Source: a virus. Taken from it: DNA of 34,575 nt. Below the pieces are notes generated by a model. That model had not been told where the DNA came from. It searched no databases and saw nothing but the letters and a program-made list of their open reading frames with translations. The stretch is from IMG/VR virus record IMGVR_UViG_3300020465_001177, positions 1-34,575 of that record. One strand, 5' to 3'. Made by a program: the position numbers and the translations under genes. Positions 4,658 to 34,575 of the stretch are shown here, in pieces (the first letter of the stretch is position 1; each line of letters starts with the position of its first letter).

Positions 4658-5019
4658 GTTTCAACTCTGATTACAAACCACCATTTCAACCACCAGATTG
4701 GGTATTTGGACCCGTTTGGGCGGCACTATACACTTCAATGGCGATAAGTGTTTATCTGGCATGGTCTTCTGATTCTCCAAGATATGCTCTTGTAGTATTT
4801 GGTATTGGTTTGGTGTTAAATCTTCTATGGACTGGAGTTTTCAATTCAAGCCAATATGAGTTATCTTTACTGATGCTTATGGGAATGATTGTATGCACCG
4901 TATTCTATGCAGTTGTGGTTTATCCATACAATAGCACTTCAGCTCTAATTGTAATACCATACATTTTGTGGCTAACATTCGCATCGGTGCTGAATGTTTT
5001 CTATCTATGGGAGGCATGA
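4654..5019 (+). CDS. tspO: TspO/MBR-family membrane protein lacking first helix
   Basis: TspO (tryptophan-rich sensory protein) homologues bind porphyrins and sterol-like ligands in membranes and influence stress and tetrapyrrole handling. This 121-residue copy has the family signatures in order: KPPFQPPDWVFGPVW leading into the second helix, LNLLWTGVF in the third, and IPYILWLTFASVLN in the last. Usual members have five helices and about 150-160 residues. This one starts at the loop before helix 2, so helix 1 is missing and four remain. The ATG overlaps the upstream stop (ATGA), so the short start looks genuine rather than misread. TspO genes are known in marine phages; why a virus would carry one is uncertain. 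Confidence 0.85.
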   Translation: MSFNSDYKPPFQPPDWVFGPVWAALYTSMAISVYLAWSSDSPRYALVVFGIGLVLNLLWTGVFNSSQYELSLLMLMGMIVCTVFYAVVVYPYNSTSALIVIPYILWLTFASVLNVFYLWEA

Positions 5020-5584: not shown

Positions 5585-5709
5585 TGATTACAGGTTCACA
5601 ATTGATTTTAGGAATGATTCTTTTGTATGTTGGATACCTATATTTTTGTGCAGTTTTAGTTTCTGTTCGAACTCTAATTGAAATCAGGGATGGTGAAATA
5701 AATGTCTGA
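5584..5709 (+). CDS. 41-residue single-helix membrane peptide
   Basis: A GTG start shares its first G with the upstream TAG stop (TAGTG). The frame codes for a 41-residue peptide with one long hydrophobic helix (LILGMILLYVGYLYF, then CAVLVSV) and a charged tail. It overlaps the next gene's ATG by eight bases and fills an otherwise empty gap exactly, which supports coupled translation. The size fits small viral membrane peptides; no family was recognised. Confidence 0.6.
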   Translation: MITGSQLILGMILLYVGYLYFCAVLVSVRTLIEIRDGEINV

Positions 5710-18256: not shown

Positions 18257-18491
18257 ATTGGCTTTCATGATGGTTTTTGGCTCATGTGTTAATTGCGGTG
18301 TATTCATGGGATTTAACCCAGAAAAAGTTCCATCAATAAGGGTCAATGGTATTCGAGAACCATTGTGTAAAAAATGCTTCATCAAGTGGAATGAAATACA
18401 TCGAATATCAAAGGGATTAGAGCCAATGAAAATATCTCCTGAAGCATATTTCCCTTCACGTATTTCTCCTAACGTTGCCGACATAGATTGA
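18249..18491 (+). CDS. Small phage-type zinc-ribbon protein
   Basis: An 80-residue protein with CVNCG and CKKC around FNPEKVPSIRVNGIREPLC. I recognise this arrangement from many phage small proteins of unknown function, which share the FNP...VPSIRVNG...REP.C core and a late pair of prolines before AY. The start may be the GTG at 18249 or the ATG at 18267. Its last 36 bases overlap the convergent ligase gene. Confidence 0.7.
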   Translation: MNELAFMMVFGSCVNCGVFMGFNPEKVPSIRVNGIREPLCKKCFIKWNEIHRISKGLEPMKISPEAYFPSRISPNVADID

Positions 18492-20402
18492 GTATCCTCT
18501 CGCTTTTGGAATTACTCGAACATTTCTTCCAGTTCTGGATCTAATTGCTTGTGCAACAAATCTGCCGTATTCTCTGCCCTTTGCTACGCCAATTTCTGCA
18601 AATTGATTCCCATTGATATTTCTGATTCTATTGTATCTAATTGGGTTATTCCAGCTTGAGGGTTTTCTAACCCTGCTAAACCTGGCTTCTTTTGGTATTC
18701 CCCTCTTGGTTTTACCAGTGAACAAGTATTCAACTTCAGAGCCTATTGGTGGTGGATTCTCTCGTATCTCATCATTCAGACCAGAACCTAATTTCCACTT
18801 AATTTCTGGATTGTCTTTCAATTCTAAAACCAAAGAACCGACTCTGCCTTTGTTTCTCCCAAGTCCTTCTTCATAACCAGATACAATACCTTCTTCTGTA
18901 TCAACGGGCTTCACTTTGAAGATATTGTTAGATCGCTTACTCCCTCCATCACCATATTCGTATGGTTCTTTCATATCTCGCAACATAATTCCTTCTCCCC
19001 CTGCTGGAACTATGTTTTGACTTAGGAAATCATCAAGCCAATCGTTAAACTCATTGAAACCATCTTCAGTTCCCTCTAAATCATTCCAATATCTAATTTG
19101 TGGAACAACTCGATAACGATGGGGCAATGTGTTTTCATTAAGCCAAAGATTTTCTTCAATCCCTGCACCAATTACAGGGACATCTGCAAACTGATTTACC
19201 AGGTCTGCATCAATTGTTAGGCCATGTTGTGTCGTCTTGTATGGTGTTGTTTTCACCAACGTTCCCAGAACCGATTGTTGAACTGTTTCTCGAACATCTG
19301 TTTCGTAAACACCAACAGTTTTGATACTCGGTTTGACTTTTTTCTGGCGATCCAATTCATCTTCAATTTGGCTTTTTGAATCATAGAAGAAAGTTCCGTA
19401 TGTGTTAGGCATTGTATTTGGTTGAAGAACATCACCATTAGAACTCAACCTATTGTATGGTGGGTTGTCGTATTTTGCTTGGAACATTTCAATTAGGCTA
19501 TTCATCGGCTTTCTAACTTCTTCAGAGTTTGGAAATGCATTATCGGTCATTTCTCTCATGTGGGAAACCAAGTCCTTCTTCGTCCACATATATTTGCCCT
19601 TAGATTTCAGATTTCTTGCTCTGGCCGCATGGTCGAATGACCTGTAAGGCCATGCAAGAACCATTTCTTCTCCAATGTATCTGGGTTCACTCATCGAAAG
19701 CAATGCATCATAAGCACTTTCAAAATCAACAATCATTTTACCCATGCCGTCTTCGAGTTCATATAGAGTTGGAGAATCGAAAATCATGTATTGAACGTTA
19801 GCCCACCTGGATTCGTCATATTTTGGGCTATCCTTGCTTGTTCTGGCGATAGAAGCAACACTCTCCCATGAATCCCTGCCAGTCCACAATTCACCGTCTA
19901 ATTTGATGTTTTTTGGTAAACCATCTGTAAACCAGCTCGGAGCATCAAATGTGTTGCCGTCTTTTGATAGAAACTTCTCTCCATCCCAAACCGCCCTAAA
20001 ACCATCCAACTTTTCGCTTATACCATAATTTTGGTATCCTTGTTTCATTACTTTCTTCTTGTGATCCTTGAATCGTTTTGCTTTCATTACCTTTGGATTC
20101 ATGAAAGAAGCCCTGCTTGCATCTCCAGGTCCAGAACGCTTCGATAATTTCCTGGTTGAAATAAATGGACTATCTGTATCTGTATATCCCTTTGAACGCT
20201 TATCCTTTTCCTTTTCTTTGGCGAACTTAACCGCATCAGAATTATTATCAAATGATTTCTCTTGAACCCTCAATTTAGAACCAGTTCTCCCATACTCAAT
20301 TTTTACCATATTATCAACAACGTCTATTTTGTAAACCTTGTCTGAACGGTTGTCTTTGTAAGACAAATCAACAGGTTTCCAACTCAAAGTTATCTCCCCC
20401 AT
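18456..20402 (-). CDS. ATP-dependent DNA ligase with WGR domain and C-terminal module
   Basis: A 648-residue ligase that seals nicks by an enzyme-AMP intermediate. The N terminus (about 1-75) reads as a WGR domain (VKIEYGRTGSKLRVQEKSF), a nucleic-acid binder. The catalytic core has motif I KLDG (K131 takes AMP), motif III LDGELW (168-173), IIIa MIFDSP, motif IV GGEGIMLRD (E470) and motif V IFKVKP, followed by an OB fold (about 505-578). About 200 residues are inserted between IIIa and IV. The last 40 residues carry the module shared by nine proteins here (NVRVIPKARGYSIYVG) and a basic end. The ATG at 20402 is preferred over longer frames because homology starts there and AGGA precedes it. Confidence 0.9.
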   Translation of the reverse strand: MGEITLSWKPVDLSYKDNRSDKVYKIDVVDNMVKIEYGRTGSKLRVQEKSFDNNSDAVKFAKEKEKDKRSKGYTDTDSPFISTRKLSKRSGPGDASRASFMNPKVMKAKRFKDHKKKVMKQGYQNYGISEKLDGFRAVWDGEKFLSKDGNTFDAPSWFTDGLPKNIKLDGELWTGRDSWESVASIARTSKDSPKYDESRWANVQYMIFDSPTLYELEDGMGKMIVDFESAYDALLSMSEPRYIGEEMVLAWPYRSFDHAARARNLKSKGKYMWTKKDLVSHMREMTDNAFPNSEEVRKPMNSLIEMFQAKYDNPPYNRLSSNGDVLQPNTMPNTYGTFFYDSKSQIEDELDRQKKVKPSIKTVGVYETDVRETVQQSVLGTLVKTTPYKTTQHGLTIDADLVNQFADVPVIGAGIEENLWLNENTLPHRYRVVPQIRYWNDLEGTEDGFNEFNDWLDDFLSQNIVPAGGEGIMLRDMKEPYEYGDGGSKRSNNIFKVKPVDTEEGIVSGYEEGLGRNKGRVGSLVLELKDNPEIKWKLGSGLNDEIRENPPPIGSEVEYLFTGKTKRGIPKEARFSRVRKPSSWNNPIRYNRIRNINGNQFAEIGVAKGREYGRFVAQAIRSRTGRNVRVIPKARGYSIYVGNVRRNT

Positions 20403-20737
20403 CTTCCTGTTTTTGAATTGAACTTCAGAACCTCTCCAGTATTTTGGGATCTCCGCCACCATGTAACTCCACCTGGAGCAATTCTTTGAACCATTACTCT
20501 TTTTCCATTGGGCATTATCTCCCAAACAGTTCCAGACCAAATGTTGTAATTAGCTGGCATCGTTGTATTGAATGGAGAGAACCTTTTACCGTTCCTCAAA
20601 GTGCCCGTAATCTGATATTGTCTTGGTGCTTTTGATTTAGCCATTGCTCTCCATTCATTGTATGATTTTTGAGTCATAGTTCTGGTTGGAGGCTTAACTC
20701 GGCTACCCCTGGTATTACGCCTCCTTTTGGTGCTCAT
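20390..20737 (-). CDS. Small basic protein upstream of the ligase
   Basis: A 115-residue, very basic protein rich in Arg, Lys, Thr and Trp, with strand-rich central and C-terminal parts (YQITGTLRNGKRF, GGVTWWRRSQNTGEV). It overlaps the ligase start by 13 bases. No family was recognised. A basic protein in a late operon may condense or bind the genome. CCGAT/ATCGG (20757-20761 and 20771-20775, nine bases apart) form an inverted repeat just upstream. Confidence 0.7.
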   Translation of the reverse strand: MSTKRRRNTRGSRVKPPTRTMTQKSYNEWRAMAKSKAPRQYQITGTLRNGKRFSPFNTTMPANYNIWSGTVWEIMPNGKRVMVQRIAPGGVTWWRRSQNTGEVLKFNSKTGRWGR

Positions 20738-20785
20738 GCATTTTAGTTTACAACAACCGATTATGACGGTATCGGGATCTTAAAG

Positions 20786-21556
20786 TCAAGAAGCACGTTT
20801 CCAGAACCTTAATTTTGATTTTCGTGGCTTTGGTTTTGGCTTGTAATTGTATGGATATTCAGGCAATATGTGATTCCTACCGCCTGTTCTTCGAACCTTT
20901 ATTCCCAACTTCGGTATATTCCTCTTGGTTGTTAGCAAAGGAACACCTCTCGGTTTACCTCCACTTCTCATCACTTCTGCATTATCAAGCCGCCTTTGAA
21001 GACCAGGTGAATGACTCATGGAATTGTAAACGTGGTTTTGGTTCGCAATATCAACTGGTGTTTCTGAATAAACACTGTAATGGGTTTTATTTCCTACACT
21101 GTATGGAACTAATCTAACTCTGCCGACATTATTTCTTCGAAGAAAATCCGATAGAACCTCTGCCTGTTTTCTATTCCTGGCATCTCCAATTATGTGACCA
21201 GTCCATGAACCGTCAAAACGCCTTCTGCCTTTTCCCTTTGATTTGTTGAAATCCCAATTTCTTGTAGCAAACCTTTCTCTGGCCGCACCAAAAGCCCTTG
21301 CTAAAGGAACTCTGGATTTATCATCAACGGCTTGTTTGCTAATCATTACTGCAACATTTTCACGTTGCTTTGAATTGCTGATGATAGGATTTTTTCTGTT
21401 GTTGTTGGCCCAAACATCAACCGCTACTCGGGCATCTTGTCTTGATACTCCCTTAACAGAAGCCAATTTGCTAATTGTTGAAGTTCTTTCAAGTGGATCA
21501 CTCAAATCAATAGGACCGCTTCTTTCAAGAATGCGAAGTATTTTCTTGTTGCTCAT
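20786..21556 (-). CDS. Basic protein with internal recurring module
   Basis: A 256-residue basic protein. Residues 20-50 are helical and may form a small DNA-binding bundle. Residues 125-165 hold the recurring module (RKQAEVLSDFLRRNNVGRVR, then LVPYSVGNKTHYSVYS), and the C terminus is Pro/Lys-rich and ends in basic residues. The ATG overlaps the upstream stop by ATGA and follows AGGAGG. Probably a virion or nucleoprotein component; that role is inferred from the operon. Confidence 0.75.
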   Translation of the reverse strand: MSNKKILRILERSGPIDLSDPLERTSTISKLASVKGVSRQDARVAVDVWANNNRKNPIISNSKQRENVAVMISKQAVDDKSRVPLARAFGAARERFATRNWDFNKSKGKGRRRFDGSWTGHIIGDARNRKQAEVLSDFLRRNNVGRVRLVPYSVGNKTHYSVYSETPVDIANQNHVYNSMSHSPGLQRRLDNAEVMRSGGKPRGVPLLTTKRNIPKLGIKVRRTGGRNHILPEYPYNYKPKPKPRKSKLRFWKRAS

Positions 21557-24500
21557 TTATTCCGCCTCCTGTAGTATGTATGTCTGTATTCTGGGTTTTT
21601 TCCATTGACTCTTTTTGGTATCTTTTTGTTGATATTACCCTTTTTGTAAACCATTCTATCATGTGGTGTAGCCAGGATTCCGTATTTTTTTGTCTTAGCG
21701 GCAGTCAAATCTCCCCAAGCAGAGTTCTTAGATTGTTCGGAATCGAAAAGTGAAGAAGCAGGTCTTACAAGGTTCACATATCGAGTCACCCGTTTTTCTT
21801 TCGGCCATATTTTTGGCTTTACCTCAATAGTTCGAACAAGGAAACCATTCTCTCTGTTTTTCTTCGCCATTATCCTGGCGGCTTCTTTTGTTTTCCAGAA
21901 AATCAAGTTATCCCATTCGTTAGATTGATACAATTTACCTTGATATTTTCGAACATACCTATCCTCTGCCTTTTTGCCGAAGTTTTCAGTATCACTCCAA
22001 CCTTTTCCCATGTGATCTATGAGTTTATCTCTATCACCACCAAAAGCCATTCTCAATGTCGGCCCTCCAAGTCGCCTGAAACTATTGCCTTCACGTTTAG
22101 CAAATCCCATAATTCCGACTCTGCCTTTTCCATCCCATGTTTTATCTGGAGTCCTACCAGCAACATTACCCCAAGTTCCCCCTGAAATTAGAACTTCATC
22201 ACTATTGAACTCTGAAGTATCGTATTTTGTATCATCCCCAAGCAATCGTTTCTTAGTCCAGCCGCCATTTATGTCCTCATCGAAATCGAGAGGATTACTT
22301 TGTGCAACCATTTTCCACTCTTTGTATTTATCATCAAATTGTTTCAGAGTCAATTTATTTCCTGTTTTCTTTGAATCGAGAACCCAATCCTTCAGCCAAT
22401 TCTTGACTTCTTCAGTTGATATTCCCTCATAGAAAATGTTGCGAACTTCTGCTTCAAGGCGTTTGGTTTCAGAATCATCATCATCCTTTCTATCGAACAA
22501 GCCTTCCATCAAGAGGTCAAGCCCTCTGTCCGAAGGTAAATCATCACCCAACCATTCTCTCCCTTTTTTGTATTCTGTTTCCCAACCGTTAAGATCGGTA
22601 AATTGGTTGCCAATTCCTTTCGATTCTATGAAATCAAGAACATCTTGTGGTATATCTTCTCCGTTAGCAGAATACAAACCTCTCTCACTTAACCTTGCTA
22701 AATCATCACCATTCAATGTTAGTTTAGATGTGAAGTTTTCGAATCCCAAGATTTGTTCTTCAACCGCATTAAGAGTTCTTTCAATCCAATACCTGTTACT
22801 ATTTTCGTAATCAGGTTCAGAATAATCAGCCATAGGTTTCGTTACTTGGTCAAGTTGATTTCGAAGCCAATTGAAAAGTCCAGAAGTGTTAGATTCTATT
22901 TGGTATGATTCCTTCTCAAATCCACCAGGTAATTCAAAGGGCCATTCAGAGAATTGACCATCTTCGAATATGTCTTGATTATCAACAACAATTCCAGAAC
23001 CAATCACTCCAACCCAATTTTCTGGGTGATTGTATTGTTTCCCCAAGTTTGGAGAACCATACATGCGGATCACTTCTCCTGTATCGAGAATACTTTCTCC
23101 TTTCTGATATATTGACTCCAGGTTAAGTTGATTTTCTGATAGTGATGCTTCGAGCATATCCTTTGTATCCTCTCCCCTAATTTCGAATATCCTGGAAGCA
23201 TTTGGCGAAAGGTCTGGGCTAAGTTTTACTCCACCGACATTGTATTCTTCTCTATCTGGCAAAGATTCCACATCATCAGCTACAATTGATGAATATGAAT
23301 CACCATTTTTCTGAATAACCAAAAATGAACGTTCATCTATGTCTTCACGATCTATCCAATTTATCTCAACTGCTTCAGGCGGTGGTTCATCTAAAGAGCC
23401 AGTTAGCAATTTTTCTGAATATGATTTGGCGGCTTTTTCAGAACCAAAAAACAACTTCTTATCGTTTCCATTTTGGTCACTGTAAAAAACAGACCATTCT
23501 AAATCAACGGAATTACGCCATGAATCCACACCATTTTTGGTATAACCGCCTCCATCTCCCATGTTAGCAATTGCACGAACCCTTGTTGGAACATATTCAA
23601 GTTCTTTATCCAAACGATTTGCAGTTAATTCGTTTAATTCATCACTCCAGGGTGAAACACCATTTAGATCCACAATCGAGTTTATCTTGCTGATGAATCT
23701 GTTTTTATCGGGGCTTTTATCGTTACGAAGCCACCTGTATCCTCTCAATTCATACCACTCATCACCATCATGCTCAATGGTATAATTCCAACCCGAATTG
23801 TTTTTTCCCTTATCCAAAGCATCTATTCCTGGTCTAATGTAGCCCCAATCTCCTGTAATTGGAAGTAATGGACTGTTTGAAGGCCACGTCCATAAGGCTT
23901 CATCAGAATCCCATTCACCGCCCTTCTTCGATTCCCTTCCTCTAAGCAAACCGATTTCTGGAACTAATTTCACATCTTCTTCTGATGCTTCAAACCGATC
24001 AATCCATTTTCCATTCTTGTAATATCCACTATTCCATTTTTGTGTATTGATATTTAGCAAATGTGTTGGTTGGTTTACTATTGGCGAATATGCGACCAAT
24101 TGTATGTTTTCTAAAGTTGAATGTTCTTTTTCTTCTGCGAATGCTTCAACGTGGTCTTTTTCCTTATTGTAAAAGTCGTTGTAATCAAGTGCAACGAACT
24201 CAAATATATCAGAATCAGGATTAGTCACGTCTATGTTTCTGTATCTGTAATTTTGGTGGCTTTGAGAACCCTTGTATGCTTTTCCAGCTAATCTGTTTTC
24301 TTCTGAATAAGTCCAAAGACGATTTAACCAGGTGTCTGTTACATCATGTTCTTCACCGTATTCATTTTTAATTTTTATTTTATTAGAAGAATCAGACCAA
24401 ACATCATCATCATTTTGAAACGTCCTAACACTGTTCAACAAACCCTCGAAATGTATGTTCGCAATTCTCCCTTCAAATGTATCAAGAAACCTCGCATCCT

Positions 24501-24972
24501 TAACAACCATATCCTCGTCTTTCTTACTCAAAACCAATTTGCCTTTAGATGGTCCATCCTCAACGAATAGTGGACTCATCACATTCTTAGTCATTCTTTT
24601 CATCAGCGATTTCCTTGAATTGTTGCTATTCATGGTTAATATCTCTCTCACAACCCAAACATCTGGATCTAATTCATTCCTCGTTATATTCTGATCCCAT
24701 AGTTTGATTGGTTTCTCTCCAGACCATGATTCAGTTACCTTATCAATCCAATTATTTGGTTTGATAGAATCGTAATTCAAATCTGAAGGAAAATCGGGCG
24801 AAGACAATTGCGCTAATCTCCAATCCTTTCTTTTGCTTTTTCCTTTGCCCTTTCTCTCCTGTTGAAGAAGGGCCTGTGCAGTAATGAAGAATGTTCCATC
24901 TGATTTGTGGGTTGTATGGAATAGTATTGGAACGTCCGTCTTGTTGAAAGTGCTCGGATTTACTGCTCCCAT
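21553..24972 (-). CDS. Very large protein of unknown function with C-terminal module
   Basis: At 1139 residues this is the longest protein here. It is rich in Trp, Asp, Asn and Gly, with many short strands and helices and no family I recognise. There is no signal peptide or membrane helix. One segment (LEWSVFYSDQNGNDKKLFFG followed by SEKAAKSYSEKL) resembles the N terminus of the 693-residue protein. Residues about 1027-1055 (KEAARIMAKKNRENGFLVR, then TIEVKP) resemble the helix-strand part of the recurring module, and the end is basic (HTYYRRRNK). The ATG at 24972 lies about 33 bases after a TATA-like box; an ATG at 25005 would overlap that box. A structural or injected multidomain protein is the leading guess. 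Confidence 0.85.
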   Translation of the reverse strand: MGAVNPSTFNKTDVPILFHTTHKSDGTFFITAQALLQQERKGKGKSKRKDWRLAQLSSPDFPSDLNYDSIKPNNWIDKVTESWSGEKPIKLWDQNITRNELDPDVWVVREILTMNSNNSRKSLMKRMTKNVMSPLFVEDGPSKGKLVLSKKDEDMVVKDARFLDTFEGRIANIHFEGLLNSVRTFQNDDDVWSDSSNKIKIKNEYGEEHDVTDTWLNRLWTYSEENRLAGKAYKGSQSHQNYRYRNIDVTNPDSDIFEFVALDYNDFYNKEKDHVEAFAEEKEHSTLENIQLVAYSPIVNQPTHLLNINTQKWNSGYYKNGKWIDRFEASEEDVKLVPEIGLLRGRESKKGGEWDSDEALWTWPSNSPLLPITGDWGYIRPGIDALDKGKNNSGWNYTIEHDGDEWYELRGYRWLRNDKSPDKNRFISKINSIVDLNGVSPWSDELNELTANRLDKELEYVPTRVRAIANMGDGGGYTKNGVDSWRNSVDLEWSVFYSDQNGNDKKLFFGSEKAAKSYSEKLLTGSLDEPPPEAVEINWIDREDIDERSFLVIQKNGDSYSSIVADDVESLPDREEYNVGGVKLSPDLSPNASRIFEIRGEDTKDMLEASLSENQLNLESIYQKGESILDTGEVIRMYGSPNLGKQYNHPENWVGVIGSGIVVDNQDIFEDGQFSEWPFELPGGFEKESYQIESNTSGLFNWLRNQLDQVTKPMADYSEPDYENSNRYWIERTLNAVEEQILGFENFTSKLTLNGDDLARLSERGLYSANGEDIPQDVLDFIESKGIGNQFTDLNGWETEYKKGREWLGDDLPSDRGLDLLMEGLFDRKDDDDSETKRLEAEVRNIFYEGISTEEVKNWLKDWVLDSKKTGNKLTLKQFDDKYKEWKMVAQSNPLDFDEDINGGWTKKRLLGDDTKYDTSEFNSDEVLISGGTWGNVAGRTPDKTWDGKGRVGIMGFAKREGNSFRRLGGPTLRMAFGGDRDKLIDHMGKGWSDTENFGKKAEDRYVRKYQGKLYQSNEWDNLIFWKTKEAARIMAKKNRENGFLVRTIEVKPKIWPKEKRVTRYVNLVRPASSLFDSEQSKNSAWGDLTAAKTKKYGILATPHDRMVYKKGNINKKIPKRVNGKNPEYRHTYYRRRNK

Positions 24973-25002
24973 TGGCGTAATCTCAAGCGAACGCCAACTC
25001 TG

Positions 25003-25010
25003 CATATATC
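25003..25010 (-). promoter_or_regulatory. TATA-like box before the 1139-residue protein
   Basis: Reverse-strand GATATATG lies about 33 bases before the ATG at 24972, so an archaeal start would leave a leader of only a few bases. It may give this gene its own promoter within the late operon. Confidence 0.35.
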
Positions 25011-25067
25011 ACTCGAAGTTTTTTACACTTTCAAGTATTCCCGCAACGCATCCATTAAAAGCACACT

Positions 25068-25241
25068 TCATGCCTTGAATGGTCCGACAAGGACGTGATG
25101 ATTTCCACCTACAGAAACTATGCGAACACTTCTCCTGGAACGCCTGATTTTACTGGCTACTGACTTTGCTTCTTCTGAATCAGATGTGTTGAATCTGCTG
25201 ATGTAATCAACACCTCCAAACCGCCTAATTACCTTCGCCAT
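25068..25241 (-). CDS. 57-residue protein made of the recurring module
   Basis: I translated this frame by hand: 57 codons from the ATG at 25241 to the TGA at 25068. After a short basic start (MAKVIRRFGG), residues 21-57 are a complete copy of the module found in eight other proteins: helix SEEAKSVASKIRR, strand SVRIVSVGGN, strand HHVLVGPF, then stop. LVGPF is exactly how the corresponding strand of SPOR domains ends. It lies in a stretch otherwise without a gene. The ribosome binding site is weak. A free module could act as a competitor, adaptor or scaffold for tagged proteins. Confidence 0.65.
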   Translation of the reverse strand: MAKVIRRFGGVDYISRFNTSDSEEAKSVASKIRRSRRSVRIVSVGGNHHVLVGPFKA

Positions 25242-25288
25242 ACTTTGCGATTCTTTGAACAGGCCATAAAGGGATCTGTTTCAAAACA

Positions 25289-25576
25289 TCAAGGGTCGTT
25301 ATTGATTCCAGAATGTTCAGCAATGCTATCCATGACTTCACGTTCAGCATTATTCCACCTTTTCAAAGCAGAATCAGTTGGTGTTTTGAACTTGAATGCC
25401 AAATCCCTTGCAGTATCTAAGTGCCATTGAAGACCCTTCGAGAACTTAGGCTCTCTGTAAACCACGCTCTTATCCCATTTGTTGCCATTCCTTCTAATTG
25501 TTAATCCAGCATTGGCTTCGCTCATAGCACACCATACTGCACTCCATATCCTCTTTCTCATTTCTCTCCTGTTCAT
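25289..25576 (-). CDS. Small basic helical protein
   Basis: A 95-residue basic protein, mostly helical, with Trp residues spaced along it (RIWSAVWCAMSEA). No family was recognised. GGAGAG precedes the ATG. The ~40-base leader between a TATA-like box (25641-25646) and the ATG contains an inverted repeat. Confidence 0.65.
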   Translation of the reverse strand: MNRREMRKRIWSAVWCAMSEANAGLTIRRNGNKWDKSVVYREPKFSKGLQWHLDTARDLAFKFKTPTDSALKRWNNAEREVMDSIAEHSGINNDP

Positions 25577-25602
25577 ACGTTTCTCTCCTATGCGCCCCCT
25601 TT

Positions 25603-25646
25603 GGAACGCTCCGTAGTTCCTACTACCAATCTATCTATCGTATAAG
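25603..25646 (-). promoter_or_regulatory. Promoter and leader hairpin
   Basis: The reverse strand has CTTATA (25641-25646) and, 20-40 bases further, the perfect inverted repeat GGAAC/GTTCC (25603-25607 and 25616-25620) with an eight-base loop. This would fold at or just after the transcription start. A second one, CGACA/TGTCG, lies at 25655-25670. The 25577-25714 gap holds nothing else I can identify. Confidence 0.3.
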
Positions 25647-25714
25647 ATTTATTTCGACACATATCTGTCGTTTTTTCGCCAAAAATCAGCCCAAAAGCAA
25701 TACTGCAAGCCAAT

Positions 25715-25915
25715 TTACAAATCCTGGCTTCGACACATGGTAAATCGGCTACTTTTGGTCATAATTTTGAACCGATCATGCACGATTTTGTTGCATTTCA
25801 AAGACAATCCACAAACCATGCATGAATCAATTTCATTTTTTGTTGGCTTAATGCCTTCAGGATAGGAGTTGAAGGTGTGAATTACACCAGAACCTAAAGT
25901 TAGAAAATGAATCAT
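25715..25915 (-). CDS. Small Cys-containing protein
   Basis: A 66-residue protein with CMVCGLSLKC and a later Cys, which may bind zinc. The ATG shares a base with the upstream stop (TGATG), the main support for the call. No family was recognised. Confidence 0.5.
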   Translation of the reverse strand: MIHFLTLGSGVIHTFNSYPEGIKPTKNEIDSCMVCGLSLKCNKIVHDRFKIMTKSSRFTMCRSQDL

Positions 25916-26307
25916 CAGAACATCTCGATTTTCATTTTATCATCGGTCCAACCATTCTTGAAAAGAAGTTGGAAAAGATGTATAGTCCATATTGTAGCAC
26001 CCAAGAATACGAAAACTCCTTCTTCGAGCTGACTACCTCTAACAATTACCCACGAACTACCCACAAAAGCCAGAACATCTGTTATTGGATTAGCCAGGTA
26101 ACTTCTGTTGTTGTCTGCACTTTGCATTTCACTCAATAAGAAATACAGTATTCCTGTGATCGTTCCAAAAAATATGAATCCATTTATTGATAATGCCGTA
26201 TTTGCATCTTGAATTACGGATTCTTCAATCATTGTTAATCCAGCCCATACAAACAATACGGGAACGATAATCACAAGCACAAGCGTTATTGGGGTCATTT
26301 TAGTCAT
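25915..26307 (-). CDS. Four-helix membrane protein
   Basis: A 130-residue protein with about four hydrophobic helices (near 7-27, 41-58, 75-90 and 97-115). The ATG at 26307 follows GGAGG; a TTG at 26313 is possible. It is paired with the next multi-spanning protein upstream, only two bases away, so the two may act together in the viral membrane. Confidence 0.75.
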   Translation of the reverse strand: MTKMTPITLVLVIIVPVLFVWAGLTMIEESVIQDANTALSINGFIFFGTITGILYFLLSEMQSADNNRSYLANPITDVLAFVGSSWVIVRGSQLEEGVFVFLGATIWTIHLFQLLFKNGWTDDKMKIEMF

Positions 26308-26309
26308 TT

Positions 26310-26690
26310 TCAAGCCTCCACGTCTTTTCTAATTTCATCGAATATGCCCAACAAAAAACCGCCTATTGATCCAATCGCAATCATTGACCAGACGGTGCTA
26401 CCGTCACTTATTCCATTGAATATCGAGAGAACAACTGCAAATACCCAGATGGTATAGATTTGAAGGCTTGAATCAAAACCATCACCATCCACTAAAATCA
26501 CACCAAAAAAATCCAAAAACCCCTCATTAACAAACATTACAGTAAAAAATCCGCTAACAATAACACATGCAAGCAATTCCCACAATTCAAACTCTGAATC
26601 ACCAGTCAAAAACCAATATGTGATTGAAAATAATGCTGAAGAAAAAAAAGCAACGGTGGTGAAATCTATTACTCTGTTCCAACGAATCAT
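26310..26690 (-). CDS. Four-helix membrane protein
   Basis: A 126-residue protein with four hydrophobic helices (about 9-28, 36-56, 76-94 and 100-117) and an acidic C terminus. It overlaps the upstream gene by ATGA. No family was recognised. Confidence 0.75.
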   Translation of the reverse strand: MIRWNRVIDFTTVAFFSSALFSITYWFLTGDSEFELWELLACVIVSGFFTVMFVNEGFLDFFGVILVDGDGFDSSLQIYTIWVFAVVLSIFNGISDGSTVWSMIAIGSIGGFLLGIFDEIRKDVEA

Positions 26691-27892
26691 AATCTAAAAC
26701 CCTCCAAATCATCATGTAATCCATCATTGTCTGCATCATTTACATCTGATGGTGGTGTTGGAGTAACGAACCATCTTGGGTGACTGTATTCCCTGGTCTT
26801 GTCTGGATCAAGTGCATTGAAGAAATCCTGTCCAGCACCAGTATTATCTGTTCGAATCATTGATTGTTCATCCCAATCTTGAGAAGTTGCCCCAAGAGCA
26901 TCTATTACTGCAACCCTATCATCTTCACGCATTGTTCCTAATGATTGAAGTGAACCATCACTCATAGCCATCTGCAAAGCCAAGAACGATGTTCCAAGCA
27001 TACTGTTCGAAGGTGGTGCGGCAATAATCTGCCCCGTTCTCATATTCATCAAACCAATTCTGCGTTCTGATTGAATCATGAAAATATATGGCGGCAAACT
27101 ATCGTTGGAGTTCTTTGGATATACAATGAACTCTTTTCCTTTACGCATTCTGCCTCCCTTCAAAGTTAGGCTCAAAGTTCCCATTACGTTTCTTCTCAAA
27201 CCACTCACTTCAGTTGGCTTTTTTGAATTGAATTGGCGAATCGAACCAGGGAACATTTTCAAGATCTCATCAACATCGGATTTTTCCTGTTTGGTCATTT
27301 CCCTTCCTTCTCTCGAACATTTACCGCACGATTTCAGGCGAGTATCGGTCCAATAGGGGGGTGTTCTCCCACATTTACCACACTTTACACCTCGCGTCAT
27401 AGATTTCTCTGCATTGAATAATCTCGGCTCAAGACGCTGTGTTGGAACGCTTTCAGTTAATCTTCTCCACTCAACGTTGCCCGTATTTTGATTGTCTGCA
27501 TACCTCTCTCTCATATCCATTCTAATGTTATCGAGTTCTTGTTTTGAGTATCTGACTTTATCAGATACCCATAATGAATATCCATTTGCTAATTTGATAA
27601 CTCTGGCGTTATATCCAGCATCTCTGTAAACTTGTGCTCTTTCTCTCATCGTTTCTTTTGATTGAAAAGTTCCTTGTTGGTTTAATGGTCTGCCCAAACT
27701 CGTTCTCGCCATATCACCGCCAAGCGGCAACAAAGTGTATCTTTGATTACCAAACTTTCGAGTCCTATTGTTTGTATCTGGATAGAAACCACTAATTCTT
27801 CTGCGAGCTGAATATCCTCTTTTTCTTTGGCAGTTAGCGCAATTGCACCTTTTACCGTCTTTCATCCCACCAGAACAACCGCAACTACCCAT
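26687..27892 (-). CDS. Metal-rich protein with recurring module and calcium loop
   Basis: A 401-residue protein with several small modules. The N terminus is Cys-rich (GSCGCSGG, then RCNCANC). Residues 77-111 hold the recurring module (NARVIKLANGYSLWVS). A zinc ribbon follows in the middle (CGKCG with CGKC). The last 20 residues contain DADNDGLHDDLE, a perfect DxDxDG calcium-binding loop of the EF-hand/TSP3 kind. The ATG at 27892 follows AAGGTGATC. Calcium loops usually mean the outside of the cell or virion, so this may be a surface structural protein; zinc and calcium sites together are unusual. Confidence 0.75.
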   Translation of the reverse strand: MGSCGCSGGMKDGKRCNCANCQRKRGYSARRRISGFYPDTNNRTRKFGNQRYTLLPLGGDMARTSLGRPLNQQGTFQSKETMRERAQVYRDAGYNARVIKLANGYSLWVSDKVRYSKQELDNIRMDMRERYADNQNTGNVEWRRLTESVPTQRLEPRLFNAEKSMTRGVKCGKCGRTPPYWTDTRLKSCGKCSREGREMTKQEKSDVDEILKMFPGSIRQFNSKKPTEVSGLRRNVMGTLSLTLKGGRMRKGKEFIVYPKNSNDSLPPYIFMIQSERRIGLMNMRTGQIIAAPPSNSMLGTSFLALQMAMSDGSLQSLGTMREDDRVAVIDALGATSQDWDEQSMIRTDNTGAGQDFFNALDPDKTREYSHPRWFVTPTPPSDVNDADNDGLHDDLEGFRL

Positions 27893-27897
27893 AGCGA

Positions 27898-28275
27898 TCA
27901 CCTTCTGCGGTAGTCAAATCGTGCGGTGTCTGGATATGTTGGGGTGAATCTCCTTCTCCCACCAGTTGAGCGATTTAATGCGATTTTTGTTTGCCTTTTT
28001 GTTCCATACTTGTCTATGTAGTCGTATATTTCTTTTGATATTCGCCTATGAACGTTGGAATCGTTCATCCAAAGGCCCGTTCTGCCTATTTGTGAACGAT
28101 AAGCATGCACTGTCGGCAGGTTTCCATTTGTTTGAATTGAAAAACCTCTTTGATTGCCCCAGGTCGGTTTTAATCGGATTATTGAGTTACCATTAACATC
28201 AACGCCAACGCCAACTATTTTTATGTCTGCATCCAATACAGGTATTTCAGATCTAAATGTTCGGTTTCTCGCCAT
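27898..28275 (-). CDS. Small basic protein with Arg-rich tail
   Basis: A 125-residue basic protein. The first 60 residues are strand-rich (IKIVGVGVDVNGNSIIRLKP), then a helix and an Arg-rich end (FDYRRR). No family was recognised. It is coupled to the upstream GNAT-kinase gene by TGATG. Like other products of this operon it has a basic tail, but lacks the recurring module. Confidence 0.7.
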   Translation of the reverse strand: MARNRTFRSEIPVLDADIKIVGVGVDVNGNSIIRLKPTWGNQRGFSIQTNGNLPTVHAYRSQIGRTGLWMNDSNVHRRISKEIYDYIDKYGTKRQTKIALNRSTGGRRRFTPTYPDTARFDYRRR

Positions 28276-30086
28276 CAGCGTTTCCTCCGAAGATACAGGT
28301 TTCCTCCAGGCGCGCCTCTCCTTGTTCGAGTTCTTTTAATCATAGTTGAACGCCATTTCCTGTCCTTCGGCCTCTCGTAAACAACATATCCGCCCTTTAC
28401 TGGAACTACTCGCGCCAAGTGAACGCCACCACCTGCCTTTCTCTTTCGAATGTTTTCAGCAACTCTCCTTGCTTTGGCTTTAGTCATTGGAACTGCAACA
28501 TTTCGTCCAGGTTCATCCCAGCGATCCCATTGCACTTTCTCAATGCTTCTTTTAGCGGCAGGTGTCCTCCATGTAACATTCGCCATGTTTGGTTTGTATG
28601 TTGATTGCCTTTTGAAGAAAACCCTTTCGAAAGGCCCATCTGCACTCTTTGAATAGGTATTATCACATGAACAACCGTCATACGTTTGGCCGCATCTTAA
28701 ACATATTAGGCGTTCTCCAGAATCTATTCCTTCAGAGTAATCTGTTTCATCAACAGCCCAGCCTCTTATTTCACTATCATCAAAATCCCAATCAATTTTA
28801 CGAACTTCTTCTTCTTGTTGTTCTCTGATTAAATCAGATCCATCAACTTCATCCTTTTCCATATTCCATGACTCAAAGAATCCAGTGGGCATCTCGAAGT
28901 ATTCATGTGGGATAGCATAGTAATCAAGCAATACGGGTTTACCATCAATAATAGTGAAGTTCCCCATGCCTAAATCCTGTTCCCAAACCCACTCTTCTAA
29001 ACTGCCCTTTACATCTTCTGTAATGTTTCCAAGCTGATATTGATTATTGATTTCATTTAGGACGTTAGTTCTCCATTCTTTTTCAGCATCCCTGTATTTC
29101 AGCCACTTCTGATATATTTCGTTTGAATCTTCATAATTCTGCTCACGTCCTTCTCTTTTACCTGTAGCAACTTGAATGTGGTAATTTAATCTCCCAGAAT
29201 CAAACATCATCCAATCATCAATGGTATCCACCCTTCTTTGAATAACTGATTGTTGCCCCATGTATTCGTCTGTTAATGCAACCCTGGCTGGAACAATAAA
29301 ATCAAGCATGAATGGTGTCTTCTCTGCAAAATGAAGTGTAACATGATCCTCCCAGAAACCGCTTGTTCCATGTTCTGTATCTAAATCTCCTTTACGTTCT
29401 TTCGCAGGTAACGGTAAATCATCCAGGTAATAGCGGTTAATCTTCAGAACATTATCATCTCCTGGTTGTGCAAAAACCCACCTTTGTTCTCCACGCCCGA
29501 TGTATTCTAAATCTAAATCTAACTTTTCAGACAATTTATCAATATCAGTAATGATTCCGTCTGGATCTCCAAAAGCCTTCAAATCATCTCCTGTTCCACC
29601 AGATACTCTCAAATCATTAGGATTGAGTAATTTGTTGTAAACTGCAACACCATCATTCCATTTCCGTTCTTGTCTTTTCCAAAGCCCTTCTGCTTTATCT
29701 GATTGCATAGGTGATGGAACAATGTAATTACCACGCTTTGCTAATTGTGATGATGCAATATCATACATGTATGTGCCCAATCCTTGATTTTGTGCCCATG
29801 TTTCAATTTTAGCATCAAATGGATAATACGCCTCCGCAGAACTATCCACATTTTCCCTTGAAAAAAAACCACTTTCTGTTGGCTGGGGTGTTTTTATGAT
29901 CTCCAAAGAACCAATCTTAATGCCTTCAGAATCAGTGGCAACCATTTCGAGTTTGCCTTTTCTATGATTGTATTTTGACTTTATTTTTATTTTTTCTCTC
30001 ACTCCAAAAATAGACGTGCCGTTCAATCTGTAATTACCTTCAGCACGTTTTCCATCTTTGGAAATTGTAGTTTTGCCCCTGCTCAA
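28275..30086 (-). CDS. GNAT acetyltransferase-protein kinase-like fusion with recurring module
   Basis: A 603-residue protein with four parts. Residues about 47-143 resemble a GNAT N-acetyltransferase: the CoA-binding motif is QNQGLGTYMYD, and SPMQSDKAEGLWKR is typical of phage members. Residues about 190-395 look like a protein kinase/phosphotransferase fold: Gly loop GRGEQRWVFA, Lys in VLKINR (K215), catalytic loop DLGMGN (D371, N376) and metal Asp in VLLDYY (D388). A Cys cluster follows (C462, C465, C472, C474), then the recurring module (about 534-572, ARVVPVKGGYVVYE) and a basic tail. The start is a TTG after AGGTGAT. Fusions of this order recall AAC-APH enzymes, but substrates are unknown. 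A virion-delivered host modifier is possible. Confidence 0.75.
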   Translation of the reverse strand: MSRGKTTISKDGKRAEGNYRLNGTSIFGVREKIKIKSKYNHRKGKLEMVATDSEGIKIGSLEIIKTPQPTESGFFSRENVDSSAEAYYPFDAKIETWAQNQGLGTYMYDIASSQLAKRGNYIVPSPMQSDKAEGLWKRQERKWNDGVAVYNKLLNPNDLRVSGGTGDDLKAFGDPDGIITDIDKLSEKLDLDLEYIGRGEQRWVFAQPGDDNVLKINRYYLDDLPLPAKERKGDLDTEHGTSGFWEDHVTLHFAEKTPFMLDFIVPARVALTDEYMGQQSVIQRRVDTIDDWMMFDSGRLNYHIQVATGKREGREQNYEDSNEIYQKWLKYRDAEKEWRTNVLNEINNQYQLGNITEDVKGSLEEWVWEQDLGMGNFTIIDGKPVLLDYYAIPHEYFEMPTGFFESWNMEKDEVDGSDLIREQQEEEVRKIDWDFDDSEIRGWAVDETDYSEGIDSGERLICLRCGQTYDGCSCDNTYSKSADGPFERVFFKRQSTYKPNMANVTWRTPAAKRSIEKVQWDRWDEPGRNVAVPMTKAKARRVAENIRKRKAGGGVHLARVVPVKGGYVVYERPKDRKWRSTMIKRTRTRRGAPGGNLYLRRKR

Positions 30087-30092
30087 TCGAAA

Positions 30093-32174
30093 TCACCTTC
30101 TGCGATTTCCACCAACATATACTCTCCATCCACCAGCACCAGGAATTACCCTTGCATTTCTGCCCATCCTTCTGATGTTAATTGCGCTTGATACCGCCTT
30201 TGACTTTGATACTGCATTACTCGAACCTAAGAACTTTTGACCCCTGATTTTACGGTGATATTTACGTTGAGCAGATGATTTTCTTCTGGCGAACTTAGCA
30301 GTTGGTATTTTGCCTCTCGAAGCCCAATTAGGAGTTTGTGAACTCGCCCTGCCTGTGGTAGTAAACCATAGCGGTGTAAATCCAGGGCCATATTGTTGTG
30401 GGATAGCATTCAAACTAATCAAACGCTTTCTGCTCCACTTCTCTGTTTGGAATCCAGCAGGGTATCCTCTTGACTCTGCGAAATCATCTGTATAATTTAT
30501 TACCAATACAGATCCACCAGCATTGAACTTGTATTCCCAACTCTTAATCGCATCACTTGGTATTTGACCACCAAGACCCGAATTAACAAATCGAGTAACC
30601 CATTGCTTATCGAGTTCGTAACGTTCCTTTGAAACTTGGTTGTCTGCAACAAGATCACCAGAAGATTGAACCAGATTCTCTAATTTCAATCGTTCCTCTG
30701 CCTCTTTTTTCAATCGGTCCTCTTGTTGCTTTTCTTCTCTTTTGCGTCTGGCTTCTTTCTGCGCTTCATCAGCCTTCCTTTGTCTTTCTGCACGTTCATT
30801 TTCTCTCTCAATGATTTCAAGTGGTGATAATCCACTATCAGCAGAAGTTCTCGTAATGCTTCTGTTAAGTTCTTTCAGTTGCCTCTCCAATCTCTCCCTT
30901 TCAGCTCTCGCTTTAACAACGGCACTTTCAGGGTCTTTTTCTTCTTCGGTTTCAAAATCAACATTATCATAAGCACCCTTAGCGGTGTTGCCGAGAACAT
31001 CAACGTATTGGTCTGGCTTGGCTATATTGTAAGTCACCTTTTCTCCCTTTGCATTGATTACTGTGAACCCTCGCATCCGACCTCTTTTGAATGATTCTGG
31101 ATTAACAAATGTATTGTTAGCAATCAAACGTTGGAACTCAACCTTGCTCAAAACCTCTCCGTCCTTATTGTAAAGATATGCTTCAATTTCCTTGTCTAAT
31201 CGGGCAAAACCCTTCCATTTCTTAGGGGGAAAGTTTCTTTCTGTATATGGGCGATTAAATGCCGACCAATTTTTACGATCCAATGTTAGATTCAGTTCAT
31301 CCCTCTGATATGCATTCCACAATGGCCCTTGCCTTGCGAAATCACGCTTCAATAATTCAAGCATATCATCTCTAACTTCAGCCTCGAACATATTTTCGTA
31401 TTCAGGAAAAACACTTGCGGCCTTTGTTCTCGATGAATTGAAAACTCTCCTAACAAGGCTCTCATCCTCATCTCGAATAAGACCATCCCAAACAAGAGCA
31501 CCACCAGCCAGAGCACCAACACCAATCCATGCGGCATTATCCTCAAGGAATTGTTGTAAATCTGATGTGTTATCATCAATAGTATCTCTCAATTCACCAG
31601 CAGTATCTATCTCTGATGCTTCAGTATTGTTTTCAGGCCCAAACTGTTCTGAAGGCAAACCTGGTTGATTCGGCCCTGTTCCTGTAACTGGTCCTGTAAC
31701 TGTGCCTCCTGGCATTGTTCCCGAACCTGGTGTTCCTGAAGGTGGCGGTTGTGGAGGGTTGATTGGGCCAATAGTTCCTCCTGAGCCATCATCTTCTGGT
31801 ATCAGTCCACCACCACCAGGTCCAATTGGATCTCCTGGCGTTATTGGTGGTGTGTATCCACCAGACGCACCTCCACCACCAGTTACTCCACCACCAATTG
31901 TTCCAATTGTTCCAATTTTATTGCCTGTATTTGGTGCACTTGATTGAAAATTAGGAATCAAATAGGGGTCTTTCTGTATTGAATCTCCCGTTCCTGGAAT
32001 AATGCTCCATTGCCCTAAATCTGAATTGTATCTTGGTAATCTGACTGTTTGGTGAATCTTAGGTTTACGCAACGTCTTTCTGTATGCTTCAGCCTCTTTT
32101 TTTGTCTTGAAACGCCTCATGGGTCTGCCTGTATCTCGGTTCATAACAACCCATTTGTTTGATTCTTCAGACAT
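30093..32174 (-). CDS. Large structural-type protein: Pro/Gly linker, hydrophobic helix, coiled coil, C-terminal module
   Basis: A 693-residue protein. The first ~40 residues (KWVVMNRDTG, then RFKTKKEAEAYRKTLRK) form a strand-helix unit. About 85-185 is a low-complexity Gly/Pro/Thr stretch, likely extended. A hydrophobic Gly/Ala segment near 212-226 (WIGVGALAGGALVWD) may enter a membrane. A mixed domain follows, then a long charged coiled coil rich in Glu, Arg and Lys, and a final domain. The last 37 residues are the recurring module (NARVIPGAGGWRVYVG) plus NRRR. GGTGA precedes the ATG. It looks like a minor capsid or internal virion protein; no enzyme motif is seen. Confidence 0.8.
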   Translation of the reverse strand: MSEESNKWVVMNRDTGRPMRRFKTKKEAEAYRKTLRKPKIHQTVRLPRYNSDLGQWSIIPGTGDSIQKDPYLIPNFQSSAPNTGNKIGTIGTIGGGVTGGGGASGGYTPPITPGDPIGPGGGGLIPEDDGSGGTIGPINPPQPPPSGTPGSGTMPGGTVTGPVTGTGPNQPGLPSEQFGPENNTEASEIDTAGELRDTIDDNTSDLQQFLEDNAAWIGVGALAGGALVWDGLIRDEDESLVRRVFNSSRTKAASVFPEYENMFEAEVRDDMLELLKRDFARQGPLWNAYQRDELNLTLDRKNWSAFNRPYTERNFPPKKWKGFARLDKEIEAYLYNKDGEVLSKVEFQRLIANNTFVNPESFKRGRMRGFTVINAKGEKVTYNIAKPDQYVDVLGNTAKGAYDNVDFETEEEKDPESAVVKARAERERLERQLKELNRSITRTSADSGLSPLEIIERENERAERQRKADEAQKEARRKREEKQQEDRLKKEAEERLKLENLVQSSGDLVADNQVSKERYELDKQWVTRFVNSGLGGQIPSDAIKSWEYKFNAGGSVLVINYTDDFAESRGYPAGFQTEKWSRKRLISLNAIPQQYGPGFTPLWFTTTGRASSQTPNWASRGKIPTAKFARRKSSAQRKYHRKIRGQKFLGSSNAVSKSKAVSSAINIRRMGRNARVIPGAGGWRVYVGGNRRR

Positions 32175-32182
32175 TTAGAAAA

Positions 32183-32851
32183 TCACCATCCTGTAGTTGG
32201 ATCTCCGTCAAAGTCGGCTTCAGAAGCAGAATATCCTATTGCACCACCAATGAGGCAACCGCCAGCAAGTGCGACTCCATCAGCAAATGGTAAAGGCCCA
32301 TCTATCCAACTTATCGCAAGCCATGTTCCGCCAGCCGTAGTTGCACAACCAGCCAAAGCACCTTGACCTCCCGTTAGCAAACCATCATCTTCAGGACCAT
32401 AATTGCCGAATCCGTATGGTTGTGGAGTTCCATAATCAACATAACCGTCTGGAACTTGGTCACTCCAAATATCTCCGTTACCATCTCCATCAATATCAAG
32501 CAATACTGGATCTGCTGGTATCAAACCGAAGAACTGTGTTTGTATCGCTAAGATGCCAACAACAATAGCAATTACCGTCAATGCGAAACCATAACCCTGG
32601 AAAACGCCACCATCTTCATCAACATCAGAATCAGTTGAGAAATATACGCCAGCTAAAATTAGAATTGGAACACTAATTACCAAAACTGCACTCGACCATT
32701 CGGTAAAACCCCATGAATCGAAGTCAATTCCAAAAGAAAAATCAAATGTTACAGTTGCTATTGCGATCCCAACAACCAGAATCAGTAATCCGATTCCAAT
32801 TATGGATGCAACAGTTACTACTTCATCATCTGTAAAATCCGAATCGGCCAT
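32183..32851 (-). CDS. Membrane protein with calcium-type loops and glycine-rich C terminus
   Basis: A 222-residue protein with three clear membrane helices (about 13-35, 54-72 and 88-108) and a glycine-rich hydrophobic stretch near 192-208 (DGVALAGGCLIGGAIGY). Between them lie Asp loops: DSDVDEDG (74-81) and DIDGDGNGD (119-127), the latter a DxDGDG calcium-binding pattern. The layout fits an envelope protein exposed to calcium-rich surroundings such as sea water. A major coat protein is possible but cannot be shown. Start and upstream stop overlap (TAATG). Confidence 0.75.
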   Translation of the reverse strand: MADSDFTDDEVVTVASIIGIGLLILVVGIAIATVTFDFSFGIDFDSWGFTEWSSAVLVISVPILILAGVYFSTDSDVDEDGGVFQGYGFALTVIAIVVGILAIQTQFFGLIPADPVLLDIDGDGNGDIWSDQVPDGYVDYGTPQPYGFGNYGPEDDGLLTGGQGALAGCATTAGGTWLAISWIDGPLPFADGVALAGGCLIGGAIGYSASEADFDGDPTTGW

Positions 32852-33222
32852 TAGTCAAAAGCCCCCCACCAATCGAGAATGTAATAGAATGTTGAGCCTG
32901 TTCCTGTGACTATCAGAAAGAACCAGATTCCTTGTTCTCTCTGGAAACTCATTTGTGCTGAACTCAAGGTCATAATCAAACCCCCAAGAGCAACGAAAGC
33001 CAAACCTACAACAACCAAGAACAATCTTAATCCATCATCGGTTATTTCATCCATCTCATCATCAATCACTGGTTCATCCCAGATTACTTCGAAAGCATCA
33101 ATTCCAGCAAGCAACAATAGCAAGCCTCCAACTGTTGAAAATAAAACAATTCTTCGTTCACGTTGCTTGTCTGGCAACAGACCTACGGTATCGTCCATGA
33201 GCATGGGTTCGACTTGCACCAT
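32851..33222 (-). CDS. Three-helix membrane protein
   Basis: A 123-residue protein with three hydrophobic helices (RIVLFSTVGGLLLLLAGI, FLVVVGLAFVALGGLIMTL, WFFLIVTGTGSTFYYIL) and an acidic loop. The reverse-strand TATA-like box at 33241-33248 lies about 22-26 bases before its ATG, so transcription of much of the late operon may begin here, leaderless. No family was recognised. Confidence 0.75.
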   Translation of the reverse strand: MVQVEPMLMDDTVGLLPDKQRERRIVLFSTVGGLLLLLAGIDAFEVIWDEPVIDDEMDEITDDGLRLFLVVVGLAFVALGGLIMTLSSAQMSFQREQGIWFFLIVTGTGSTFYYILDWWGAFD

Positions 33223-33240
33223 TTATGAGCAGTTCGCACC

Positions 33241-33248
33241 TATTATGT
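33241..33248 (-). promoter_or_regulatory. TATA-like box, leaderless start at 33222
   Basis: Reverse-strand ACATAATA lies 22-26 bases before the ATG at 33222, with no ribosome binding site at the usual distance. This matches the leaderless pattern at 17031 and 16859. Confidence 0.4.
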
Positions 33249-33263
33249 TTGAATGCACACTTT

Positions 33264-34575
33264 TCAACGCTTCTTTCTGTTTCCAATGTAAACTCTAAAG
33301 CCGTTTGAAGAAGGAATTACTCTTGCGTTCAACCCCTTATTTCTGATGATATTAGCGACATTTCTTGCATCATTTTTAGTCATTTGACGGTTCGAACCAA
33401 GAAACACATTTCGATTTATTGTTCTTGAATATCTTCTTCTATCAAATTGTCTTGAATCTGGTCTTTTGAATAGATCTGTTTGACTTTGACCTGAACCAAT
33501 CATTGATACTGGTTTCCCACTAATCTTGATTTCATCCTTTCTTTTTTTCATCCCCTTTCTTGTTTGCTGGAATGAAGCCATTCCTCCAGCCAACATATCA
33601 TTCACTTGATACAAGATGCTAATTAGTGCCGTTCCATCTGCTCTTGATGTGCTATTAGCAAAATCACTTTGAACAAACTCCATCGTATCCACACCGTATA
33701 ATTCTCCACCAACAAGAACAGGCATTGCGTTCCCACTCCAGCCTCCCTGCATTATCCCCCAATCGTTGAGAAGTTCTTCGACTTCTTCTGGTGTATCGGC
33801 CAATTCATTTGCTTTGTTAATCGCATCAGTTATATGACCTTCAGAAATCAGAATTGCCGCAACTTCACCATCATTTCCTTGACCCTCAAGCGACTCTTTC
33901 ATTTCTTGAATATCGGATATGTATGATTTCTCCAGGTATTCCCTGACTACATCTGAAGATTCTGGGTTTGATTTGAGCCTTGAACTTAGTTCCATCATTA
34001 TTGAGCGATCCTTTTCACTAAAAGAAGTCCAAATGGTGTCGTTAGGCCAACCGTCTTCATCATCTGGTAATAGTTGTTCAAACATCTCAAATACATCGTT
34101 TGGTAGTTCCATATCACTACCATCTGGAAATGTTTTACTTTCAAAAAAATCCTTGAATGCTTCACCCATCGGTTCATCTTCATTGAACATTATTACTGGC
34201 CTTATTGCTTGGAACTCTTCATTGTAGTTTTCTTTGAATGGATCTCTTTCAGAATATCCCATATCCACTTCCTGAAGGTATCTATCCATTGGACTGAAGG
34301 CATCAGCAGTTTCGATAAAAAAAGTTGCACTGTTAATTGCATCCATTACCTCTTGTAAATACAAACCTTGTTGGCCCAATGAATTATCTCCAATTCGCCT
34401 CCATGTTTCTGGATCTGCGGCATTACCTCTCCCATAATTCCCTTGAGTCCATGCAAGACCACCAAGTATTCCATTTTCGTCTTCCATAGCAAATTGATAA
34501 CTTGCTCTTTCATCCCAGGTATTTCCATTGTCGCTGGTGACGAATACTCTGGCAATCATCCAGGGCAGTATTCTA
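33264..34575 (-). CDS. Protein with C-terminal recurring module (5' partial at window edge)
   Basis: At least 431 residues from the ATG at 34559, but the frame stays open to the window edge, so the true start is probably outside. The body is acidic and helical with Asn/Asp-rich stretches (FVTSDNGNTWDERASY at the start). The last 100 residues are basic, and the final 39 are the clearest copy of the recurring module: TKNDARNVANIIRNKG, NARVIPSSNGFRVYIG, then NRKKR. No catalytic motif was seen. Likely an internal virion protein by context. Confidence 0.8.
   Translation of the reverse strand, partial: RILPWMIARVFVTSDNGNTWDERASYQFAMEDENGILGGLAWTQGNYGRGNAADPETWRRIGDNSLGQQGLYLQEVMDAINSATFFIETADAFSPMDRYLQEVDMGYSERDPFKENYNEEFQAIRPVIMFNEDEPMGEAFKDFFESKTFPDGSDMELPNDVFEMFEQLLPDDEDGWPNDTIWTSFSEKDRSIMMELSSRLKSNPESSDVVREYLEKSYISDIQEMKESLEGQGNDGEVAAILISEGHITDAINKANELADTPEEVEELLNDWGIMQGGWSGNAMPVLVGGELYGVDTMEFVQSDFANSTSRADGTALISILYQVNDMLAGGMASFQQTRKGMKKRKDEIKISGKPVSMIGSGQSQTDLFKRPDSRQFDRRRYSRTINRNVFLGSNRQMTKNDARNVANIIRNKGLNARVIPSSNGFRVYIGNRKKR

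Follow-up and report, generated by a model that had tools for sequence, protein, structure and literature searches.

Why do nine otherwise unrelated proteins encoded in one virus record carry the same short module? The window, that is, the whole stretch of DNA analysed, is a virus record of 34,575 bases, and an earlier note on it had described such a module, interpreting it as a common address tag. Profiles from which the tested copy, its genome or its homologues had been left out refound all nine copies (E 2.7e-4 to 3.5e-15 with own homologues excluded), and each of the four clearest was recovered by leave-one-out profile HMM at 7e-7 to 8e-10 or better. A profile made from relatives only detected the nine window copies at 3e-17 to 4e-8, with the next window gene at 0.33. 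Random proteins gave nothing comparable, the best E value in twenty residue-shuffled proteomes being no better than 0.04, and a search outside called genes yielded no orphan copies. The nine window proteins thus share one module.

Eight copies lie on the minus strand within the range originally assigned to them (18456-34575). Two form the extreme C terminus of their proteins: residues 370-431 of a 431-residue protein (gene 33264-34559; domain 33267-33452; E 3.5e-15, own homologues excluded) and residues 630-693 of a 693-residue protein (30093-32174; domain 30096-30287; E 6.7e-15), whose homologues likewise have a C-terminal tag in each of the three large relatives. The 694-residue WGR/ATP-dependent DNA ligase (18456-20540; Pfam matches WGR and DNA_ligase_OB_2) carries the domain at residues 631-693, after its OB domain at 558-625 (18462-18650; E 5.5e-12), and a 57-residue protein (25068-25241) consists of the stand-alone domain (25074-25241; E 1.9e-9). 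The remaining copies in this range lie inside their proteins or towards the opposite end: residues 507-577 of a 603-residue kinase-like protein (28275-30086; domain 28356-28568; E 2.8e-9), which has a weak phrog_4301 match outside the domain; residues 42-115, on the N-terminal side, of a 404-residue protein (26687-27901; domain 27557-27778; E 4.4e-13); residues 1011-1083 of the protein at 21553-25005 (domain 21757-21975; E 6.6e-8), first given as 1139 residues long and spanning 1150 when counted from its first start codon; and residues 104-164 of a 256-residue protein (20786-21556; domain 21065-21247; E 2.7e-4 with own homologues excluded, 2.4e-8 with the relatives' profile). The ninth copy falls outside the range, on the plus strand, in a 365-residue GP88 protein (8751-9848; PF17338, E 5.5e-42), where it occupies residues 270-341 (9558-9773; E 2.9e-11) after the GP88 family domain (30-252). 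Placement at the extreme C terminus, which the earlier note had considered frequent, applies at or adjoining the end of only the 33264 and 30093 proteins, the ligase and the 57-residue protein, and the statement that most of the proteins end in Arg or Lys is incorrect, being true of four of the nine only.

The description of a beta-alpha-beta module captured a genuine homologous unit but overlooked its first hairpin, RRIDGKxYxxxG. The full domain measures about 55-60 residues and runs from this hairpin through a short loop and SKxxAxxxAxxIRxxGxNARVIP to GxxVYVG. AlphaFold2, supplied with the 57-residue stand-alone protein and 42 aligned copies, predicted a strand-strand-helix-strand-strand fold (pLDDT 90.7) comprising one helix and two hairpins. 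Across the window and the sequences of its relatives, 76 copies occur in 74 proteins. All are basic, most of them strongly, with a net charge per 100 residues of +18, compared with +0.4 in the remainder of these proteins and -2 in untagged ones. Arginines are 95% conserved at three profile positions (12, 39 and 46), and none of the aligned profile positions holds a conserved acidic residue. This is a new basic domain, and its charge, together with three conserved arginines and no conserved acid, makes a common anionic ligand likely on sequence grounds.

Relatives were collected with an untagged P-loop ATPase-like protein (6610-8004, plus strand), the best-conserved gene product of the window, as lineage marker; the 33264 protein, used as query, retrieved none. 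In IMG/VR the marker retrieved two short contigs as well as three of 63-66 kb (G002, G004 and G005), at 64-75% identity. Two of the three large relatives have exact repeats at their termini, 77 and 123 bases long, and are therefore probably complete; the window corresponds to about half of one such genome. The sole cellular match of the ATPase was on a contig assigned by binning to a Candidatus Poseidoniaceae MAG, two further contigs of which carry pieces of the element. The protein was absent from 292 other genomes of the host class, matched no phage record and had no Pfam or PDB relative; a structural classification of it, or of a packaging system, was dropped because the predicted model was too poor. 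The element is probably a virus of Poseidoniales archaea, a host call that rests on MAG binning. The MAG contig also bears a copy, at 51% identity, of a small membrane protein encoded at 4654-5019 of the window and TspO-like by eye.

The distribution of the domain over genes is strongly skewed, nearly all copies lying within one long block of large genes. With the block defined by gene layout and solubility by a simple hydropathy count, 60 of 68 block soluble proteins (at least 120 residues) are tagged. Of 34 membrane proteins 5 are, and of 64 soluble proteins outside the block another 5, four of them GP88. The Fisher values for these two comparisons (2e-13 and 2e-22) are inflated by the kinship of the genomes, but each large genome on its own shows the pattern, with 18/19, 20/21 and 15/19 block soluble proteins tagged. 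The large relatives encode 22, 23 and 18 tagged proteins, which account for 48-51% of their encoded residues. In proteins of at least 150 residues, no more than 20 residues separate 40 of 68 domains from a terminus, whereas 2000 random trials gave 7.8 on average and 18 at most; N-side and C-side placements in the relatives number 35 and 33. One copy per protein is usual; two proteins (G004 41583-43586 and G005 38011-40350) have two copies each.

Tagged proteins fall into 17 groups common to several genomes and 22 confined to a single genome, and their payloads diverge faster than untagged proteins do. Gene conversion between copies was rejected as a general process, since the nearest copy on an unrelated protein came from the same genome in 15 of 74 cases versus 19.5 for shuffled labels. 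Only two copy pairs look recently related, both in G002; in one, the C-terminal copy of a ligase (63314-65437) and the N-terminal copy of another protein (29995-31158) share 69% identity over 52 residues, which suggests one recent copying event.

Payloads could be recognised as WGR/ATP-dependent DNA ligase, GP88, heliorhodopsin (E 2.5e-70), TusA, DUF3860, SNF2/type III restriction-like helicase and DUF5754, and the domain never overlaps the known family domain of these proteins. The ligase, GP88, helicase, TusA, heliorhodopsin and DUF5754 families are functionally unrelated, as had been claimed for the carriers. The domain has been added to families that occur elsewhere untagged, namely GP88 and DUF5754: among GP88 homologues in 267 phage records, none extends across the domain and none covers 80% of the window's GP88 protein, and DUF5754 lies behind the domain in G004 and is free of it in G005 and G002. 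DUF5754 itself was considered as the domain and rejected, being a payload that follows it (L021:1050-1535); elsewhere it stands alone and N-terminal (L028:15021-15596) or ends a 793-residue protein (L020:14511-16892), and papers mentioning the family concern an algal virus and polinton-like viruses.

Heliorhodopsin is encoded by all three large relatives (L018:4977-6074 in G002, L028:17090-18175 in G005 and L021:2-985 in G004). Two of the three proteins are tagged; a tag on the G004 protein, suspected by eye, received no profile support. In the host class the family is seldom met, 2 of 244 genomes exceeding the cut-off, and the viral carriers named in the literature consulted are giant viruses, not archaeal viruses. 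The domain sits on the N terminus of the protein, which is cytoplasmic in this family (PMC7807009), indicating that it works on the inner side.

No stretch of the domain proved sufficiently conserved to serve as a query against viral contigs. NCBIfam and PHROGs gave no convincing domain match, and single copies or a consensus found none among known phages and plasmids, a search in which the low-complexity filter may mask basic sequence. Two of 195 Poseidoniia genomes matched, convincingly in one MAG only and there on fragments of this element; in the second, an enzyme-like protein of the chromosome matched partially, and a host-wide domain was rejected for the host class. Two other Thermoplasmatota genomes encode small stand-alone proteins (open frames of 45 and 94 codons; L056:712-846 and L057:123-404; profile E 7.6e-9 and 2.2e-10), and the short contigs concerned are possibly mobile elements. 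The proteins share the sequence pattern of the domain as single copies not fused to payloads, and may resemble its ancestral form.

The resemblance to half of a SPOR domain, raised in the earlier note, holds for part of the fold. No Pfam family other than SPOR (PF05036) is matched by more than two copies. With E values up to 1 admitted, SPOR matches 8 of 42, the best at 20.7 bits, all individually scored copies staying below the curated cut-off of 21 bits. The CwlC SPOR structure 1x60 is the second Foldseek match, with probability 1.00 and TM 0.69 but E 0.07 and rmsd 4.7. The likeness comprises a similar strand-helix-strand-strand half and sub-threshold sequence matches. These matches end, however, at position 52 of the 76-position profile, covering its first two thirds and never its last third, and hhalign against four E. 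coli SPOR domains returned a probability of 13%. A complete SPOR fold has two strand-helix-strand halves and two helices, whereas the predicted structure lacks the second helix and strand and has an extra first hairpin, conserved arginines and a cytoplasmic-side location. A true SPOR domain binding cell-wall glycan strands is further contradicted by the heliorhodopsin copy, which should face the cytoplasm, and by the predicted hosts, as Poseidoniales have no peptidoglycan; we regard it as hardly conceivable. Judging by profile scores and the predicted model, we take the domain to have a half-SPOR-like fold and to be no SPOR domain.

What, then, does the domain do? We lean slightly towards a terminus-independent docking domain that brings soluble proteins together on a single anionic partner, virion loading being the simplest purpose. 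The lineage would fuse a folded basic domain to soluble proteins with no other relationship, at their N or C terminus, and the three near-invariant arginines would bind one common anionic partner, be it an acidic scaffold, the genome or the inner membrane face. With a single shared partner, all carriers would collect at one place in the cell, most economically the interior of the assembling virion, where enzymes and other proteins would be taken up as cargo and travel jointly into the next host. Membrane proteins, we propose, are mostly untagged because the membrane already positions them. The gene distribution is best explained by an address. The proposed common address tag draws support from the tagging of 60 of 68 block soluble proteins and few membrane or outside genes, from the addition to an enzyme family whose known relatives are without the domain, and from the basic, arginine-conserved sequence. 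The virion is a plausible destination, and binding to the genome or to the inner face of the membrane would fit nearly as well.

Several features of the domain would also suit a role on DNA, in which tagged proteins coat or ride the element genome in cell or particle and loading is a by-product: the strong positive charge, the conserved arginines without conserved acids, and a weak Foldseek likeness to the DNA-binding LAGLIDADG enzyme I-DmoI, albeit with every fold match above E 0.04. The ligase and helicase payloads act on DNA and would likewise gain from a DNA-binding domain, which we count against virion loading. Yet tags are missing from most genes elsewhere, although it is outside the block that one would expect replication and regulation functions, and the heliorhodopsin and TusA carriers have no obvious reason to contact DNA; this explanation seems to us unlikely, if worth keeping in view. 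The basic surface and the rarity of tags on membrane proteins could also point to a binder of the inner membrane face or of an envelope matrix, collecting tagged soluble proteins under a virus-modified membrane or envelope. Membrane proteins are numerous in the block, including two large and highly acidic ones, and the heliorhodopsin copy lies on the cytoplasmic side; but heliorhodopsin, already in the membrane, would need no membrane-binding tag, and the conserved arginines suggest a site more specific than mere charge, making this option rather improbable. Self-assembly, by which tagged proteins join through the domain into a large complex or tegument-like layer without a separate receptor, would agree with the usual single copy on many proteins of one gene block and with the existence of two-copy proteins (n = 2). 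Direct association among copies that are all basic, and mostly strongly so, is disfavoured, and we give this possibility little credence.

For a docking domain with an anionic partner, the candidates are a very acidic protein, the giant acidic membrane proteins, DNA and lipids. The first of these (5702-6613, plus strand; 303 residues, soluble, net charge -38) is conserved, with homologues in all relatives, and untagged; we infer that it is a candidate docking partner. It has a strongly acidic tail and a scaffold-like composition, and its gene adjoins the ATPase gene in all relatives. Large membrane proteins are present in the tagged block, and two giant acidic ones are encoded there in the relatives; no capsid protein was recognised, a point against virion loading, and the block yielded no scaffold protein either. 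A small basic untagged protein (window 27898-28275) is kept in 4/4 genomes, reaching 402 residues in G005, and is a possible structural protein.

If the domain sets location, it shows which of dozens of unrecognisable virus proteins act together, and the bare 57-residue domain offers a handle for localisation testing. That a new Poseidoniales virus lineage loads nearly all large soluble proteins of one block, about half of its encoded protein and including heliorhodopsin, into particles via one address domain seems quite possible, short of probable. If true, a single virus would possess a general code for loading its particles with cargo, and the domain might find use as a cargo-loading tag. 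Its profile also helps to detect further members of a virus group barely recognised by family libraries.

Among Poseidoniales mobile elements with virus-like traits, Charybdis measures about 4.6 kb (PMC12324425), against 63-66 kb for the tagged elements. MIX is reported to be required for secretion of a type VI effector (PMC9602870), and MIX and similar effector marker domains resemble ours in that a shared domain is joined to unrelated activities; the system, domain and placement differ, and no secretion machine is seen in this element. Also comparable are the internal proteins of T4 (IPI and others), where one conserved capsid targeting sequence loads highly diverse proteins into the head (PMC3012670). 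Both cases place the same element on several unrelated proteins of one virus (here nine in the window and 18-23 per large relative), and our payload families GP88 and DUF5754 are known elsewhere without it. Ours differs in being a folded domain, some 55 residues long, that is placed near one end or the other of 18-23 proteins in a genome and whose part in loading is a proposal. As a functional analogy rather than homology, it would extend the T4 capsid targeting idea to a modular domain on half an encoded proteome.
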